From Sinomonas gamaensis (GTDB lineage Bacteria; Actinomycetota; Actinomycetes; Actinomycetales; Micrococcaceae), in the NCBI RefSeq assembly GCF_005876955.1, contig NZ_SSCL01000006.1:1-64000 (forward strand): DNA of 64,000 nt. Reading direction: 5' to 3'. Both the position numbers and the translations under genes were made by a program. The notes beneath the pieces were generated by a model. It was not told the origin of the DNA. It worked only from the letters and a program-made list of their open reading frames with translations, and did no database searches. Shown in pieces: positions 3,275-58,400 of this stretch. Within the stretch, counting starts at the first letter, position 1. Every line of letters starts with the position of its first letter.

Positions 3275-4585
3275 CTAGTGAACCAGAGCCGGTTCAGGCA
3301 GCTGGACCTTCTCGACCTCGACGGGGGTGAAGCCCGCCTTCAGTTCGGCGTGGAGCTTCTCTGTGTCGAGCGCCCGCTGCCACTTGGCAATGGCAACGCA
3401 GGAGACGATGTTGCAGACCGTGCTGGTCAGGGCGCGGGCTTCGCTCATGAACCGGTCGATGCCGACGATCAGGGCCACACCGGCCACCGGAAGCGTGGGC
3501 ATCACGGTGAGCGTGGCCACCAGGGCGACGAAGCCGCTGCCCGTGACACCCGCGGCCCCCTTGGAGGTCAGGAGCATCATGCCGAGCATGAGGAGGATCT
3601 GGTCCCAGCTGAGGTGGATGTCGCACGCCTGGGCGATGAACATCGAGGCGAGCGTGAGGTAGACCGCCGTGCCGGTGAGGTTGAACGAGTAGCCGGTGGG
3701 GACGACGAGTCCGACGACACCGCGCTCGCAGCCGATCCGCTCGAGCTTGGAGAGCAGGCGAGGCAGGACGGGTTCGCTCGAGGAGGTGGCGAGGACGATC
3801 AGGAATTCGTCCTTGAAGTAGCGCAGGAGCTGCCACAGGCTGAAGCCGGTGATCTTGGCGAGGATGCCCAGGCCGATGACGACGAACGCGATGCAGGCTG
3901 CGTAGAAGGCGAGGATCAGCATCCCGAGGTTGCCGATCGAATGGGCCCCGTACTTGCCCACGGTGTAGGCCATGGCACCGAACGCCCCGATGGGCGCGAC
4001 CTTCATGATGTAGCCGAAGACCACGAACAGCAGCCGGTTGAAGCTGTTGACCACATCCAGCGCGAGCCTCCCGGGTGCGCCGAGCTTGGTGAACGCGAAG
4101 CCGCACAGCAGGGCGATCAGGAGTACGGGGAGGACCTCGCCGTTCGAGAACGCGCCGACGAAGGTGCTCGGGACGATGCTCAGCAGGAAGTCCGAAGGAT
4201 TGCTGCTCGGCAGCTGGCTCGTGTACTTCGAAGCCACTGACGCATTGAGGTGGGCGGGATCGATGTGCATCCCGGCTCCGGGCTGGAAGAGCAGGACGGC
4301 GCCGAGGCCCAGCGCGAGGGCCAAGGCGGTCAGCGTGTAGAAGAGGCCGAGGGAGCGGACCAGGGTCGGCCCGACCTTCTTGGTGTCAGTGAGCGAGGTG
4401 ATGCCGCTGACGATCGTGCAGAAGACGATCGGCGCGATCAGGAACTTCACGAGTTTGACGAAGCCGTCGCCGAGGGGCTGGAGCGAGGAGCCGAGGTCGG
4501 GCCAGAAGGCGCCGACCAGAATGCCGAGCCCTACGCCGATGAGGACCTGAACGTACAGGTGTCCCAGGATTGATTTGATCTTCAT
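3275..4585 (-). CDS. dctA: C4-dicarboxylate/cation symporter (DAACS family, DctA)
   Basis: 436 residues with the full DctA/GltP layout: eight membrane helices and two re-entrant loops. The signatures TGYSFNLTGTAVYLTL (around residue 300) and MLLTSKGAAGVTGSGF (around 340) line the substrate and sodium/proton sites in this family. It imports C4-dicarboxylates such as succinate, fumarate or malate. The gene follows prpF on the same strand after 57 bp, with a divergent LysR gene beyond, so a substrate of the PrpF pathway or a related di- or tricarboxylate is a reasonable inference. Confidence 0.92.
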   Translation of the reverse strand: MKIKSILGHLYVQVLIGVGLGILVGAFWPDLGSSLQPLGDGFVKLVKFLIAPIVFCTIVSGITSLTDTKKVGPTLVRSLGLFYTLTALALALGLGAVLLFQPGAGMHIDPAHLNASVASKYTSQLPSSNPSDFLLSIVPSTFVGAFSNGEVLPVLLIALLCGFAFTKLGAPGRLALDVVNSFNRLLFVVFGYIMKVAPIGAFGAMAYTVGKYGAHSIGNLGMLILAFYAACIAFVVIGLGILAKITGFSLWQLLRYFKDEFLIVLATSSSEPVLPRLLSKLERIGCERGVVGLVVPTGYSFNLTGTAVYLTLASMFIAQACDIHLSWDQILLMLGMMLLTSKGAAGVTGSGFVALVATLTVMPTLPVAGVALIVGIDRFMSEARALTSTVCNIVSCVAIAKWQRALDTEKLHAELKAGFTPVEVEKVQLPEPALVH

Positions 4586-4642: not shown

Positions 4643-5788
4643 CTATGCCGTCTGGGCCACAGGTTGTGCGACGTCGATGTCGGCGACGGCGAGCTGGCGC
4701 GCCGCCCGGTGCAGGGCGACTTCGCTGACTTTGCCGGAGGCATCTGTGGTGACTTCGGCGGTGATGACACCGGCGGGGGTGCCGATGCGCAGCAGCCCTG
4801 ATGCGCTGCTGCCGAGGGGGGCCAAGCGTGCGGCTTCCGCGACGACCGTTCCCGGAAGGGCGGAAGCGAGAGAGACCGCGACGGCGGAGGTGAGTCCAAT
4901 TGCCGGGTGCGGAGCGAGCATCGAGAGCATCCGCACCCGCACGTCGTGGCTCTCCGCCGTGATCTTCGCGCCGTCGCTGGCGATGTAGTCGCCAGCAGGG
5001 GCGACGACGCCGACCTTCGGCACCGCGTTCTGCGGCGGATCCTCAGGCCGCCGGATTCCCATCTGGACGGCGGCGGCAGACCGCGCCCTGATCAGCTGAG
5101 GCAGGTGCGTGGTGAGAGGGTCGGTCATCGAGGACAGGTCGATGCCCACCTGATCCGCGGGGAGGAACACCGCCGGCGCGCCGGCGTCGACCATGCTCCC
5201 CTTGAGTCCGGCCCCGATCTCGTCAACGGGCCTGCCCGTCGGCAGGACCGAGCCGGTCGTCTGGCCCCAGGGGGCGTGGAACGAGAGGCTCACGGGGACC
5301 CCGGGCGCGCTGCTGCCCGGAACCGTGGCGCGTCCCGACGTCGGGACGCGGCCGCCCGGCGTCGAGATCGTTCCGCTCAGAACGGCCCCCGTGTTCACAT
5401 TGCGCATGCGGACCCGCGTTGTCCCGGCGCTCGGGGCGACGATGCCCGACTGAACCGCGTACAGGGCAATCGCCGTGGCGCAGTTGCCGCAGTTGGAGCC
5501 CAGCTCGACGGTCGGGTCGCCGATCCCGACCTGCGCGAAGAGGTAGTCGAGGTCGGCCGGTCCGTCGGGAGTCGGGGTGATGATCGCGGCCTTCGACGTC
5601 GTCGAGGTCCCGCCGCCAACGCCGTCGAGCTGGCGTGCGTCCGCCGCCCCGAAAGCATCGGCGAGCAGCATCAGCACCTCCTCCTGGCTGGTGGCGTGGA
5701 GCGTCACGTCGTCGGCGTCGAAGAGCCAGCACTTGCTCGTGCCGCCCCGGTACCAGTGACCGCGAAGTCGCACGGTCGTCTCCTTCAT
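4643..5788 (-). CDS. prpF: PrpF-family isomerase (aconitate / oxalomesaconate-type tautomerase)
   Basis: 381 residues with the PrpF opening RGHWYRGGTSKCW and the conserved SNCGNCATAI segment near residue 100. PrpF proteins have a diaminopimelate-epimerase-like double fold and move a double bond in C6 tricarboxylates: cis/trans-aconitate, 2-methylaconitate, or 4-oxalomesaconate. No prpD/acnD or gallate-pathway gene is adjacent, so the exact substrate is open. Its place with dctA and a divergent LysR regulator suggests a small import-and-isomerise module for aconitate-like acids. Confidence 0.85.
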   Translation of the reverse strand: MKETTVRLRGHWYRGGTSKCWLFDADDVTLHATSQEEVLMLLADAFGAADARQLDGVGGGTSTTSKAAIITPTPDGPADLDYLFAQVGIGDPTVELGSNCGNCATAIALYAVQSGIVAPSAGTTRVRMRNVNTGAVLSGTISTPGGRVPTSGRATVPGSSAPGVPVSLSFHAPWGQTTGSVLPTGRPVDEIGAGLKGSMVDAGAPAVFLPADQVGIDLSSMTDPLTTHLPQLIRARSAAAVQMGIRRPEDPPQNAVPKVGVVAPAGDYIASDGAKITAESHDVRVRMLSMLAPHPAIGLTSAVAVSLASALPGTVVAEAARLAPLGSSASGLLRIGTPAGVITAEVTTDASGKVSEVALHRAARQLAVADIDVAQPVAQTA

Positions 5789-7819: not shown

Positions 7820-8413
7820 ATGGCACGCATCATCGTCGCGCAGTTCATCACCCTCGATGGTGTCGTCGAAGATCCCGACGGATCCGACGGCACCGCTTTC
7901 GGCGGCTGGGCCTTCCGCCACGGCCGAGAGGCAATTGCCGGCGACAAATTCGCCTACGGTCCGATTCTGCAGACCGGGGTCTTCCTGTTCGGAAGGAAGA
8001 CCTGGGAACACTTCTCGACGCTGTGGCCGGGGCGCGAGGATCCCTTTGCGCGGGCCCTCAACGCCGCGGACAAGGCAGTCGCCACGCGATCGGGAGTTGA
8101 TCTCGGCCGGTGGCAGAATTCTCGAGCCGTCAGCGGCGATGTCGTTGAGTGGGCTCGCCAAGAATCTGACCATCGCGACGTCGTCATTATCGGCAGCGGG
8201 ACTCTCGTCGATCAGTTTGTCAGCTCAGGGGTGGTCGACGAATACCGCCTGCGGGTCTTCCCGACTGCGACCGGCGCCGGCCGCCGCCTTTTCCCCGGCG
8301 GGTGTCACCTCGACCTGGCCAGCAGCGAACGCATGGGACCGACAACACTCGCCATCTGCACCCCGGCCCTCGACAGGGCGAGGATTCAGCCGTGGCCGGA
8401 TCCTCGCCCGTGA
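7820..8413 (+). CDS. Dihydrofolate-reductase-like / RibD C-terminal family protein
   Basis: 197 residues beginning MARIIVAQFITLDGVVEDP, the standard start of the RibD_C/DHFR-like family. GRKTWEHF near residue 55 and VIIGSGTLVDQF near residue 130 (NADPH-binding half) follow, as do the late TATGAGRRLFP residues. These proteins are presumed NADPH-dependent reductases; few have known substrates, and some occur beside sigma factors of the preceding type. A clear AAGGGAG ribosome site precedes the start. It converges on the arsenic operon. Confidence 0.88.
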   Translation: MARIIVAQFITLDGVVEDPDGSDGTAFGGWAFRHGREAIAGDKFAYGPILQTGVFLFGRKTWEHFSTLWPGREDPFARALNAADKAVATRSGVDLGRWQNSRAVSGDVVEWARQESDHRDVVIIGSGTLVDQFVSSGVVDEYRLRVFPTATGAGRRLFPGGCHLDLASSERMGPTTLAICTPALDRARIQPWPDPRP

Positions 8414-8418
8414 GTGCC

Positions 8419-8472
8419 TTAGCAGCATTCGCAGCTGTCGTCGCAGCAGCAATCGTCGTCTCCGCCCGCCAT
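8419..8472 (-). CDS. 17-residue cysteine-rich peptide, last gene of the ars operon
   Basis: A complete short frame reading MAGGDDDCCCDDSCECC then TAA: six cysteines and six acidic residues in 17. Eight bases upstream of the ATG lies AGGAGG within GAAAGGAGGTG (8479-8489), an 11-nt match to the anti-Shine-Dalgarno end of actinobacterial 16S rRNA and among the strongest ribosome sites in the window. It begins 32 bp after the arsC stop on the same strand, so it is the distal gene of arsR-aquaporin-arsC. A thiolate-rich acidic peptide could bind As(III) or a soft metal (inference). I know of no named family. It is not an attenuator leader for this operon, because nothing lies downstream on this strand. 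Confidence 0.7.
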   Translation of the reverse strand: MAGGDDDCCCDDSCECC

Positions 8473-8504
8473 CCTGGCCACCTCCTTTCCCGCTGTTCCG
8501 TGGT

Positions 8505-8930
8505 TTAGGTGCCTGAGGGAAGCAGCTCGGCGATGAGGTTCTCGACGCGCCCCTTGATCTCGTCTCGGATCGGGCGCACGGAATCGACCCCCTTCCCAGC
8601 GGGGTCGTCGAGCTCCCAGTCCTCGTAGCGCTTTCCGGGGAAGATCGGGCAGGTGTCGCCGCAGCCCATGGTGATGACGATGTCGGAATCCTTGACCGCC
8701 TGCGTCGTGAGAATCTTGGGGCTTTCGGTGCGGATGTCGATGCCCTCCTCGAGCATCGCTTCGACCGCGGCGGGGTTGACTCTCTCCGCGGGCTCAGAGC
8801 CAGCGGACCTGACCTCGATGCGACCCCCCGAGAGACGGTTGAGATACGCGGCGGCCATCTGGGAGCGGCCCGCATTGTGGACGCAGACGAAAAGAACGGA
8901 GGGCCGGCTGGCTGCAGCATCTGAGCTCAT
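8505..8930 (-). CDS. arsC: Arsenate reductase, low-molecular-weight phosphatase type
   Basis: 141 residues. The P-loop CVHNAGRSQM (CX5R, residues about 15-24) and the later GCGDTCPIFPGK with two further cysteines are the LMW-phosphatase-type ArsC layout: the first Cys attacks arsenate, and the others relay the disulfide to thioredoxin or mycoredoxin (which one cannot be told here). It reduces As(V) to As(III) in the cytoplasm. The start is fixed by an ATGA overlap with the aquaporin gene; longer frames upstream lie inside that gene. Confidence 0.92.
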   Translation of the reverse strand: MSSDAAASRPSVLFVCVHNAGRSQMAAAYLNRLSGGRIEVRSAGSEPAERVNPAAVEAMLEEGIDIRTESPKILTTQAVKDSDIVITMGCGDTCPIFPGKRYEDWELDDPAGKGVDSVRPIRDEIKGRVENLIAELLPSGT

Positions 8931-9625
8931 GAGATGACTTTCTGTTCGGCCTCGACGGAGGCGGTACCCGTTGCGGACGGATACAGGAGACGGACCAGGA
9001 GGAACCCGAGCGCGCCGCCGACGAGCTGGGCGAGGACGAACGCCGGGGCGGAGACCGGAGCGATCCCCGCGAAGGTGTCGGTAATGGTCCGAGCGAAGGT
9101 GACGGCAGGGTTGGCGAAGCTGGTCGAACTCGTGAACCAATAGGCCGCGGCGATGTACCCGCCGACGGCGAAGGCAACCCGGTCCGCGCGGCCCGAGCGA
9201 ATGACGCCGAACACCACGAGCAACAGGCCGACCGTCGCCACGACCTCGCCCAGCCACAGCCCGGGCCCCGAACGGACGTGCGACGAGAGCGCCACCGCGT
9301 CGAGCCCGAACATCAGGTTCGCCACCACCGTGCCGGCGAGGCCGCCGAGACACTGGGCCAGGATGAGCGCGGCAGCGGTGGGCCAGTCGAGGATCCCCAA
9401 AGCCTTCTCCACGAGGGTCACGACAGGATTGAACGAGGCCGACACCGGCTGAAGCGCGACGATGAGCGCCACGAGCGCAGCACCCGTGGCGATGCTGTTC
9501 TCCAGCAGCGCGAGGCCGGTGTCGGGGGAAAGCCGGGAGGCCATGATTCCAGAGCCGACGACGGCGATCACCAGGAACGCCGTGCCTGTCGCCTCGGCGG
9601 CGGCACGCCGAGCGAGGAGGTTCAC
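8927..9625 (-). CDS. MIP/aquaporin-family channel in ars operon (AqpS-like arsenite exporter)
   Basis: 232 residues, six membrane helices, and two half-helix NPA-type motifs: NPVV near residue 65 and NPAVT near residue 170. The first NPA motif is altered to NPV. In the Sinorhizobium meliloti arsR-aqpS-arsC-arsH operon such a channel takes the place of ArsB/Acr3 and lets arsenite leave the cell after ArsC has reduced arsenate. The same order, arsR-channel-arsC, occurs here with 4-bp overlaps on both sides, and no pump is present. It belongs to the GlpF-like branch by general appearance, but selectivity-filter residues were not assigned. Confidence 0.88.
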   Translation of the reverse strand: MNLLARRAAAEATGTAFLVIAVVGSGIMASRLSPDTGLALLENSIATGAALVALIVALQPVSASFNPVVTLVEKALGILDWPTAAALILAQCLGGLAGTVVANLMFGLDAVALSSHVRSGPGLWLGEVVATVGLLLVVFGVIRSGRADRVAFAVGGYIAAAYWFTSSTSFANPAVTFARTITDTFAGIAPVSAPAFVLAQLVGGALGFLLVRLLYPSATGTASVEAEQKVIS

Positions 9626-9972
9626 CTGGCCGTCCCGCCGATCACGGACGCCAGGTTCTCCAGCGACTCGGTCCGAGCTCGGTAGTACGCCCAGACGCCC
9701 CGCTTCTCCCGCTCGAGGAGCCCTGCTTCATGCAGGATCTTCAGGTGATGGCTGATCGTGGGCTGCGAGAGGTCGAAGGCGTCGTTCAGATCGCACACGC
9801 ACGCCTCCCCGCCCTCGTGCGAGGCGACCAAGGACATCAAGCGCAACCGCACCGGATCCCCCAAGGCCTTGAGCACGATCGAAACCTGCTCGGCCACCTC
9901 CTCGGAGATCGGCTCGCGCGCAAGCGGCGAACAGCACGCGACCGCCTGGATCGGGGTCAGCTCGAGATTCAT
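9622..9972 (-). CDS. arsR: ArsR/SmtB-family arsenic-responsive repressor
   Basis: About 116 residues from the ATG at 9972; a GTG two codons upstream also fits. Winged HTH with DLSQPTISHHLKILHEAGL as recognition region. The arsenic-sensing pair is visible as CVCDL just before the HTH (as in the E. coli ArsR ELCVCDL site), and an extra CC pair occurs near residue 13. It represses until As(III) binds. No Shine-Dalgarno is visible, so the gene may be leaderless. Its start lies inside a dyad that is the probable operator. Confidence 0.93.
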   Translation of the reverse strand: MNLELTPIQAVACCSPLAREPISEEVAEQVSIVLKALGDPVRLRLMSLVASHEGGEACVCDLNDAFDLSQPTISHHLKILHEAGLLEREKRGVWAYYRARTESLENLASVIGGTAR

Positions 9973-10003
9973 AGACACTCGTCAATATTTACGCCTGTCT
10001 ATG
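9970..10003. promoter_or_regulatory. Probable ArsR operator, dyad over the arsR start
   Basis: CATAGACA (9970-9977) and TGTCTATG (9996-10003) form an exact 8-bp inverted repeat around the AT-rich core GTCAATATTTAC. One arm contains the arsR start codon itself, so a bound repressor would cover the transcription start and initiation region. The position and symmetry suit an ArsR autoregulatory site; binding is inferred. Confidence 0.6.
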
Positions 10004-58201: not shown

Positions 58202-58214
58202 GCAAGGAACCTCT

Positions 58215-58400
58215 CGTTAGCGCCTGCGAAGTTAGCTGCCGGGTTCGGATGCGAGTCATCCGGCCCCCGCCGTCCTGGCGCGGGCTTCACCCCTGGCCGC
58301 TGGTCCGCATTGAGCGGGCCTTCGCGGGCCGATGGTTCCTCCGTCTCTGCCTTCTCCTGCACTCCGGGCTGTCGGCAGAGTTCGGCGAACCACACCCGGA
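58215..58400 (-). promoter_or_regulatory. c-di-AMP riboswitch (ydaO/yuaA type)
   Basis: Read leftward, the leader contains the conserved blocks of this class: GTTCGCCGAAC near the 5' end, GGAGGAACCA, GGGGTGAAGCCCG, and GAACCCGGCAGCTAACTTCGC, which are the hallmark ydaO segments. It ends about 20 bp before the transglycosylase start. In actinobacteria this riboswitch commonly precedes rpf, NlpC/P60 and transglycosylase genes and turns them off when c-di-AMP is high. Boundaries are approximate. Confidence 0.87.

Follow-up and report, generated by a model that had tools for sequence, protein, structure and literature searches.

A very short, acidic, Cys-rich peptide gene of Micrococcaceae ars operons and its possible role as a miniature metallothionein

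Some ars operons of Micrococcaceae carry a gene for a very short, acidic, Cys-rich peptide whose coding status and linkage to the operon are well supported, and which, on balance, we take to be an ars-encoded miniature metallothionein that buffers the As(III) made by ArsC. Few bacterial operons have been studied as well as the ars operon, yet the abstract of a 2025 paper says that it has yielded no gene specific to the sequestration of arsenic inside the cell (PMC12093948). If As(III) binding by the peptide is true, a gene for only 17-30 residues, skipped by five plasmid records, would fill this gap; it would also offer bioremediation or sensing a minimal arsenic trap that is genetically encoded, and would show that a metal-binding gene under selection can be this small.

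The peptide gene at the end of an ars operon

The window, the whole 64-kb stretch of DNA that was analysed, comes from a genome of 4.32 Mb, and the named arsC locus that matches best is that of Sinomonas sp. R1AF57. Its ars genes (Table 1) are closely packed, with 4-nt overlaps, from the coordinates, between arsR and aqpS and between aqpS and arsC. An earlier note on this DNA had proposed that arsC is followed, 32 bp on, by a 17-residue Cys-rich frame with six Cys and six acidic residues behind an 11-nt Shine-Dalgarno sequence. All of this was confirmed. Direct translation gives MAGGDDDCCCDDSCECC, with six residues of each kind, and 32 nt lie between the ArsC stop codon (8505-8507) and the ATG at 8472. 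The upstream stretch, GGGAAAGGAGGTGGCCAGG-ATG, contains the Shine-Dalgarno sequence, an 11-nt match to the complement of what we take to be the 16S end, a sequence not from this genome. The window was not chosen for its peptide, and the peptide is the only small frame in it with at least five Cys and at least 25% Cys.

Table 1. Features of the ars operon and its 3' flank in the window
Feature	Coordinates	Strand	Remarks
RibD_C reductase gene	7820..8413	+	convergent, outside the operon; 3' end overlaps the hairpin
Hairpin GGGCGAGGAT...ATCCTCGCCC	8376..8409	-	3' of the peptide stop; strong fold, without a U-tract
Cys-rich peptide gene, 17 codons	8419..8472	-	stop TAA at 8419-8421; translation of the window
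Shine-Dalgarno GAAAGGAGGTG	8479..8489	-	ends 6 nt before the peptide ATG
arsC, arsenate reductase, LMWP fold	8505..8930	-	LMWPc (PF01451); NCBIfam arsenate reductase models below their own cut-offs
aqpS, MIP-family channel, probable As(III) exit	8927..9625	-	MIP (PF00230)
arsR, ArsR/SmtB regulator, Rv2640c-like	9622..9978	-	HTH_5 (PF01022)

Because arsC is followed by the peptide gene and then by a hairpin that lies inside the 3' end of the convergent RibD_C gene, the peptide gene is the last of the operon in the window, as the note had it. This placement is not general: the window's layout was found at 4 of the 29 loci described below, and the peptide gene is last at one more. Folding of 8366-8421 gave -32.2 kcal/mol (z -4.9), and strong hairpins also lie 3' of the peptide gene in L180, L181 and L182 (z -5.4, -5.9 and -4.8). 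No U-tailed terminator was found; the window's hairpin is the probable end of the operon transcript.

Distribution of relatives

Relatives of the gene were found at 29 loci. Of these, 27 are spread over 24 of the 395 Micrococcaceae genomes searched, and the other two lie on named contigs outside that set (L066 and L088). Six of the positive genomes belong to the window's genus and 18 to one other genus (g9, which includes named Arthrobacter and Pseudarthrobacter contigs). Five plasmids also carry the gene, four as full copies (L192, L193, L194 and L196, from Arthrobacter and Paenarthrobacter) and one as a shortened copy (L195). The full-length records number 33 and contain 30 distinct peptides. 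Every one of the 29 loci and of the five plasmid copies lies in an ars operon, and 27 of the 29 loci were found by genome-wide searches that did not require ars genes. The earlier note had let its proposal depend on conservation of the frame and its ribosome site in related ars operons; both are conserved in the relatives at 29 ars loci, whose ribosome sites are strong.

The first scan sought small Cys-rich frames at 109 loci around arsC relatives, 29 from a genome search (one of them without an arsC match) and 80 named. In the window's genus the peptide gene was found directly behind arsC in L002, L006 and L007 besides the window, and two loci, L003 and L004, had it before arsA. Seven of the 80 named loci carried it (L052, L066, L070, L082, L083, L088 and L091); of these, L052, L070, L082, L083 and L091 are copies of genome loci with the same peptide and, like short duplicate loci, are left out of the 29. 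The remaining small Cys-rich frames of the scan lacked the motif, and their ribosome sites were absent or weak (5 nt or less).

The 395 Micrococcaceae genomes were then searched two ways, with a peptide profile and with a DNA pattern. The profile, made from 12 peptides (A1), matched 16 genomes at E <= 1, and 15 after a match in G005, which sits in a 616-aa frame, was dropped; it is too short, and so misses many members, the window's included. The DNA pattern, which is biased to TGC codons and the [DE]CC end and misses TGT-rich, differently spaced or differently ending relatives, matched 42 genomes, 19 with the peptide and 23 with chance matches only. Chance matches were recognised by their letters (wrong frame, TGG for the stop, an internal stop, repeats), and those within loci were also scanned. 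A match in G279, open in frame and with a true stop, was rejected: it has no ATG, and its one GTG has no ribosome site. Five genomes in which the pattern missed the peptide were added by the profile (G218, G370, G383, G388 and G392).

At the level of the order, the pattern matched 29 of 396 genomes, 361 of the 396 being from outside the family, and the only members were G000 and G022; four outside matches, open in frame and with a true stop, were without an ATG or GTG start, and the others were rejected on their letters. In a class-level sample of 345 genomes, 14 matched the pattern, giving one new candidate (L197) and three transporter tails (L198-L200); the other matches besides G000 and G022 were judged to be chance on their letters. 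The candidate in L197 (5992-6054, minus strand), from another actinobacterial family, is a 20-residue frame, MCPCCDDPTCDGSCCDGECC. It has a strong ribosome site and follows a MerR-family regulator gene at a distance of 6 nt; the same 12-kb stretch also holds, by similarity, arsC, acr3 and an ArsO-like gene. L198, L199 and L200 (minus strand, ends near 4886, 4952 and 4935) encode CDF-type membrane proteins (PF01545, by a test on L198 only) with a Cys-rich tail, CGPGCDCC or CGPDCDCC. Each has an ArsO-like gene within 10 kb, and L200 has arsC and aqpS as well. The L197 peptide and the three tails look like independent uses of the same Cys-rich tail.

Occurrence in the family is patchy, with ArsC detected at E <= 1e-40 in 325 of the 395 genomes vs the peptide in 24. 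Six of the 15 genomes of the window's genus have the gene, and it is dispensable, since such a frame is lacking from the ars loci of the other nine. Of these nine, four have the oxidoreductase gene behind arsC, two have trxB, one has arsA and two have no reference gene.

Gene order and cassette behaviour

Neighbouring genes were identified from tblastn searches with a set of eleven reference proteins, a procedure by which other small genes may be missed. Seven gene orders were seen among the 29 loci. The most frequent, trxB-peptide-FAD oxidoreductase, accounts for 15 loci, in 14 of which arsC precedes trxB, and is also the order on the five plasmids. The window's order, arsR-aqpS-arsC-peptide with nothing further, has been mentioned; one locus adds the FAD oxidoreductase gene behind it. 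The others are arsC-peptide-FAD oxidoreductase (four loci), arsR-aqpS-peptide followed by further genes (two), arsR-peptide-arsA-arsA (two) and arsC-trxB-peptide at the end (one). The immediate 5' neighbour of the peptide gene is thus trxB at 16 loci, arsC at nine, aqpS at two and arsR at two, and the next recognised gene 3' is that of the FAD oxidoreductase at 21, arsA at two and arsC at one, with no same-direction reference gene at five. Acr3-like proteins (PF01758, the domain tested on L066 and the rest assigned by similarity to L066) occur in five loci and AqpS in most of the others. The name ArsO was rejected for the FAD oxidoreductase, which is only distantly ArsO-like (58 bits vs a cut-off of 425).

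Among the named loci with trxB behind arsC, the peptide gene is present in 6 of 15. The gap between trxB and the oxidoreductase gene is 182-261 nt in the six named loci with the peptide and -1 to 59 nt in the six named loci without it in which the gap could be measured; the three further named trxB loci have neither the peptide nor the oxidoreductase in view. The difference at this junction indicates that the peptide gene behaves as a small cassette that is gained and lost.

Two loci showed further peculiarities. In L168, about 0.45 kb before the peptide gene, all that matches trxB is three short segments spread across about 420 nt, so this trxB is probably damaged; the peptide frame is intact. 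In L174 the interval between the peptide gene and the next gene contains a palindrome (5051-5116, plus strand) that is about 66 bp long and begins with CCCAACCAGGTAGCAGCA. It is probably a dispersed repeat element, given that CCCAACNAGGTAGCAGCA is present in 10 copies in G388 and four in G386, with none in the other four of six genomes searched.

Sequence features and selection

Typical members of the family are MDTGCCTDTGCCDEDDLDCC and MTNGCCGDSGCCDDEDCC. The 33 full records are 17-30 aa long (54-93 nt) with 25-38% Cys, and the family is metallothionein-like in being very small, at least 15% Cys and poor in hydrophobic residues. All 33 start with ATG and have a Shine-Dalgarno-like 5-mer before it, mostly within GGGGAGGGGGTGA. 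The C-terminal end is DCC in 30 and ECC in three; because the pattern searches required [DE]CC, support for this end comes solely from the 13 loci of the unconstrained scan, all of which have it. The number of Cys is modular, with members having 5, 6, 7, 8 or 10, and four in the shortened L195. The ten-Cys member, in L163, repeats TDTGCC. L195, on plasmid pYA7-1b (4500-4538, plus strand), has 12 residues, MDTGCCTDTGCC, four of them Cys; compared with L194 it is missing 24 nt between two TGCTGC repeats, and the CC-stop end is kept.

In a census of 1.22 Mb, 74 of 6,712 nested frames (ATG to stop, 12-40 aa) had at least five Cys and at least 25% Cys. The sample is biased in that it consists of the fetched loci and the window, many of the loci having been picked for the peptide and overlapping loci being counted repeatedly. 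Of these frames 73 belong to the peptide family, each with a Shine-Dalgarno-like 5-mer, and the odd one (L036) has none. The 368 non-Cys residues of the family are 46% acidic and 6% hydrophobic or basic, vs 11% and 52% in base-shuffled codons, and this acidic excess argues for selection on the peptide beyond its Cys codons. The frame is also more conserved than the DNA behind it: 0.70 vs 0.24/0.19 in the window type (4 loci), 0.76 vs 0.46/0.36 in the trxB type (20 aligned sequences) and 0.66 vs 0.39/0.51 in a mixed set (5 loci). The stretch 31-100 nt 5' of the frame has a conservation of 0.45 in the window type and 0.81 in the trxB type, in which it is the end of trxB. Synonymous change at Cys codons carries little information, since 204 of 207 are TGC. 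In equal-length groups pN/pS was moderately below 1, at 0.58 pooled and 0.91 in the ungapped 54-nt group that includes the window. That frame lengths are divisible by three is trivial for open frames and no evidence of coding.

The window's member is the most divergent. A profile that includes its sequence fails to recover the peptide in its own genome, and its first half aligns poorly to relatives. It has in common with the family its position (arsC, peptide and hairpin, as in L180, L181 and L182), ribosome site, size, Cys and acid content, and an ECC end. On the strength of its place we count it among the orthologs, with the reservation that position, composition and ribosome site are most of what links it to the family.

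Annotation and literature

The earlier note had further held that peptides of this size are missed by annotation and that no such member had been described. Both statements stood in the material covered. The frame is missing as a gene from all five plasmid records; the gene table consulted describes itself as incomplete. On pTC2 the place of the oxidoreductase is taken by AAur_pTC20060, a 'putative Secreted protein' (L194 4511-6040, plus strand), whose annotated start overlaps the peptide frame (4500-4562) in a different frame and is probably wrong. Searches of Pfam and NCBIfam with a 20-residue frame, so short a query that a match may be missed, gave nothing up to E 1, and no profile of a known metallothionein family in these collections matched the peptide. 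Rfam had nothing at the peptide in the window, L174 or L160; a c-di-AMP riboswitch (RF00379, 53.2 bits) lies elsewhere in the window, at 58206-58397 on the minus strand. No description of such a peptide was found in the titles and abstract starts of the open-licence papers that came up in literature searches, some of them aimed at other subjects, and an ars gene survey (PMC6205960) does not use any word that begins with 'small protein', 'cysteine-rich', 'peptide' or 'metallothionein'.

Proposed function and alternatives

As(III) binds vicinal thiols. In the buffer that we favour, the peptide would be made together with ArsC once arsenic lifts ArsR repression, an induction suggested by the position of the gene behind arsR. 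Its vicinal Cys pairs, three in a peptide that also carries many negative charges, would bind As(III) released by ArsC, and, at three thiolates per As, a six-Cys peptide would hold about two As. The bound As(III) would be kept from enzyme thiols until its removal by AqpS, Acr3 or another exporter. Such a peptide would act by buffering rather than by directed delivery: the variable number of CC modules, together with the variable exporters, favours a buffer over a dedicated hand-off. As a counterpoint, where the exit is a passive channel, a buffer might also retard export. The earlier note had offered, as its other possibility, that the peptide hands As(III) to the channel. That idea is weakened, as Acr3 replaces AqpS in five loci and the peptide gene stands before arsA in two; an AqpS-specific partner is therefore unlikely, and a channel-specific role was set aside.

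Delivery to a partner in a wider sense, with the peptide as an As(III) metallochaperone that passes As(III) to ArsA or an exporter and so does as a separate peptide what the Cys sites do in ArsD, is unlikely, although some features point that way. In L177 and L178 the peptide gene is preceded by arsR and followed by two arsA genes (PF02374), so that it stands where arsRDABC operons have arsD; the genomes of these two loci have no ArsD match. Further, the tail of E. coli ArsD, ...SGCCGGNTSCC, resembles the GCCGDSGCC and CC end of the family; the sequence compared, which we take to be that of E. coli ArsD, matches an annotated plasmid arsD at 100%. According to published work, the chaperone activity of ArsD needs Cys12/13/18, and its Cys112/113 and 119/120 pairs are proposed to be regulatory (PMC4562236). 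Against a chaperone, arsA is in view at only 2 of the 29 loci, the exporter and the number of Cys modules both vary, and the ArsD profile does not match the peptide.

A frame so rich in Cys codons might instead be a Cys-sensing leader that, with a hairpin, attenuates the next gene. In the trxB type an inverted repeat was seen by eye between the peptide and FAD oxidoreductase genes in most of 20 aligned sequences, and of two such stretches folded, that of L194 was stable (z -2.8) and that of L162 not clearly above shuffles (z -1.0). Attenuation of an ars operon by a hairpin is described for Bacillus CDB3 in the same source (PMC4562236). For the peptide gene an attenuator is nonetheless improbable, though conceivable in the trxB type. 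The gene that follows differs among loci; no reference ars gene lies behind at 5 of 29, and the window's next gene is convergent. Before arsA the gap is 11 nt, which leaves no room for a terminator. Moreover, the frame is led by a Shine-Dalgarno sequence and lies inside the operon rather than in a 5' leader, and its acidic residues are selected beyond the Cys codons.

ArsC requires thiol reducing power, and the gene immediately upstream is trxB at 16 of 29 loci (the probably damaged copy of L168 among them), so one could conceive of the peptide as a redox partner whose dithiol shuttles between ArsC and either TrxB or mycothiol. The odds are poorer still for this role: window-type operons have no trxB adjoining the peptide gene, the typical member has no thioredoxin-type CxxC, and the peptide is far too short for a thioredoxin fold. 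That it is a RiPP precursor modified by the FAD oxidoreductase, whose gene is the next one recognised behind it at 21 of 29 loci, is very improbable, given that the oxidoreductase is not behind it at the other eight, the window among them, that no gene for another modifying enzyme or for export was recognised, and that the peptide is too small for a leader and a core.

The As(III) buffer can be placed in a broader, more tentative proposal, which we put forward as a possibility short of an even chance. In it the peptide is a gene-encoded, phytochelatin-like, As(III)-sequestering microprotein; its gene would be a new ars gene and the first intracellular sequestration factor within ars operons, a discrete cassette gained and lost on chromosomes and plasmids, and the same trick would have arisen behind other metal regulators, as with the MerR-linked peptide of L197.

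Comparison with known systems

Bacterial metallothioneins such as SmtA and MymT are small and Cys-rich, with few hydrophobic residues. The peptide resembles them in these respects and in its predicted thiolate metal binding, but it is far shorter and strongly acidic, has mainly vicinal Cys pairs, is encoded inside ars operons and has no Pfam or NCBIfam match. ArsD (PF06953) shares with it vicinal Cys pairs, a C-terminal CC in the E. coli plasmid form and, at two loci, the place before arsA; a C-terminal vicinal pair is found in the peptide at each of the 13 loci of the unconstrained scan. ArsD, however, has a fold of its own and a length of about 120 aa, and PF06953 does not match the peptide. 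An ArsD match was found in none of 33 genomes searched, with 1 of 14 controls positive.

The polycysteine ORFs that Canestrari 2020 reportedly described in mycobacteria are also very short, Cys-codon-rich frames in actinobacteria. They are said to be leaderless and to act as operon attenuators, whereas the peptide genes are led by Shine-Dalgarno sequences, lie in or at the end of ars operons and encode acidic residues under selection. The phytochelatins, like the ars peptide, are short thiol-acidic peptides; they are made by an enzyme from glutathione, whereas the ars peptide is encoded by a gene.
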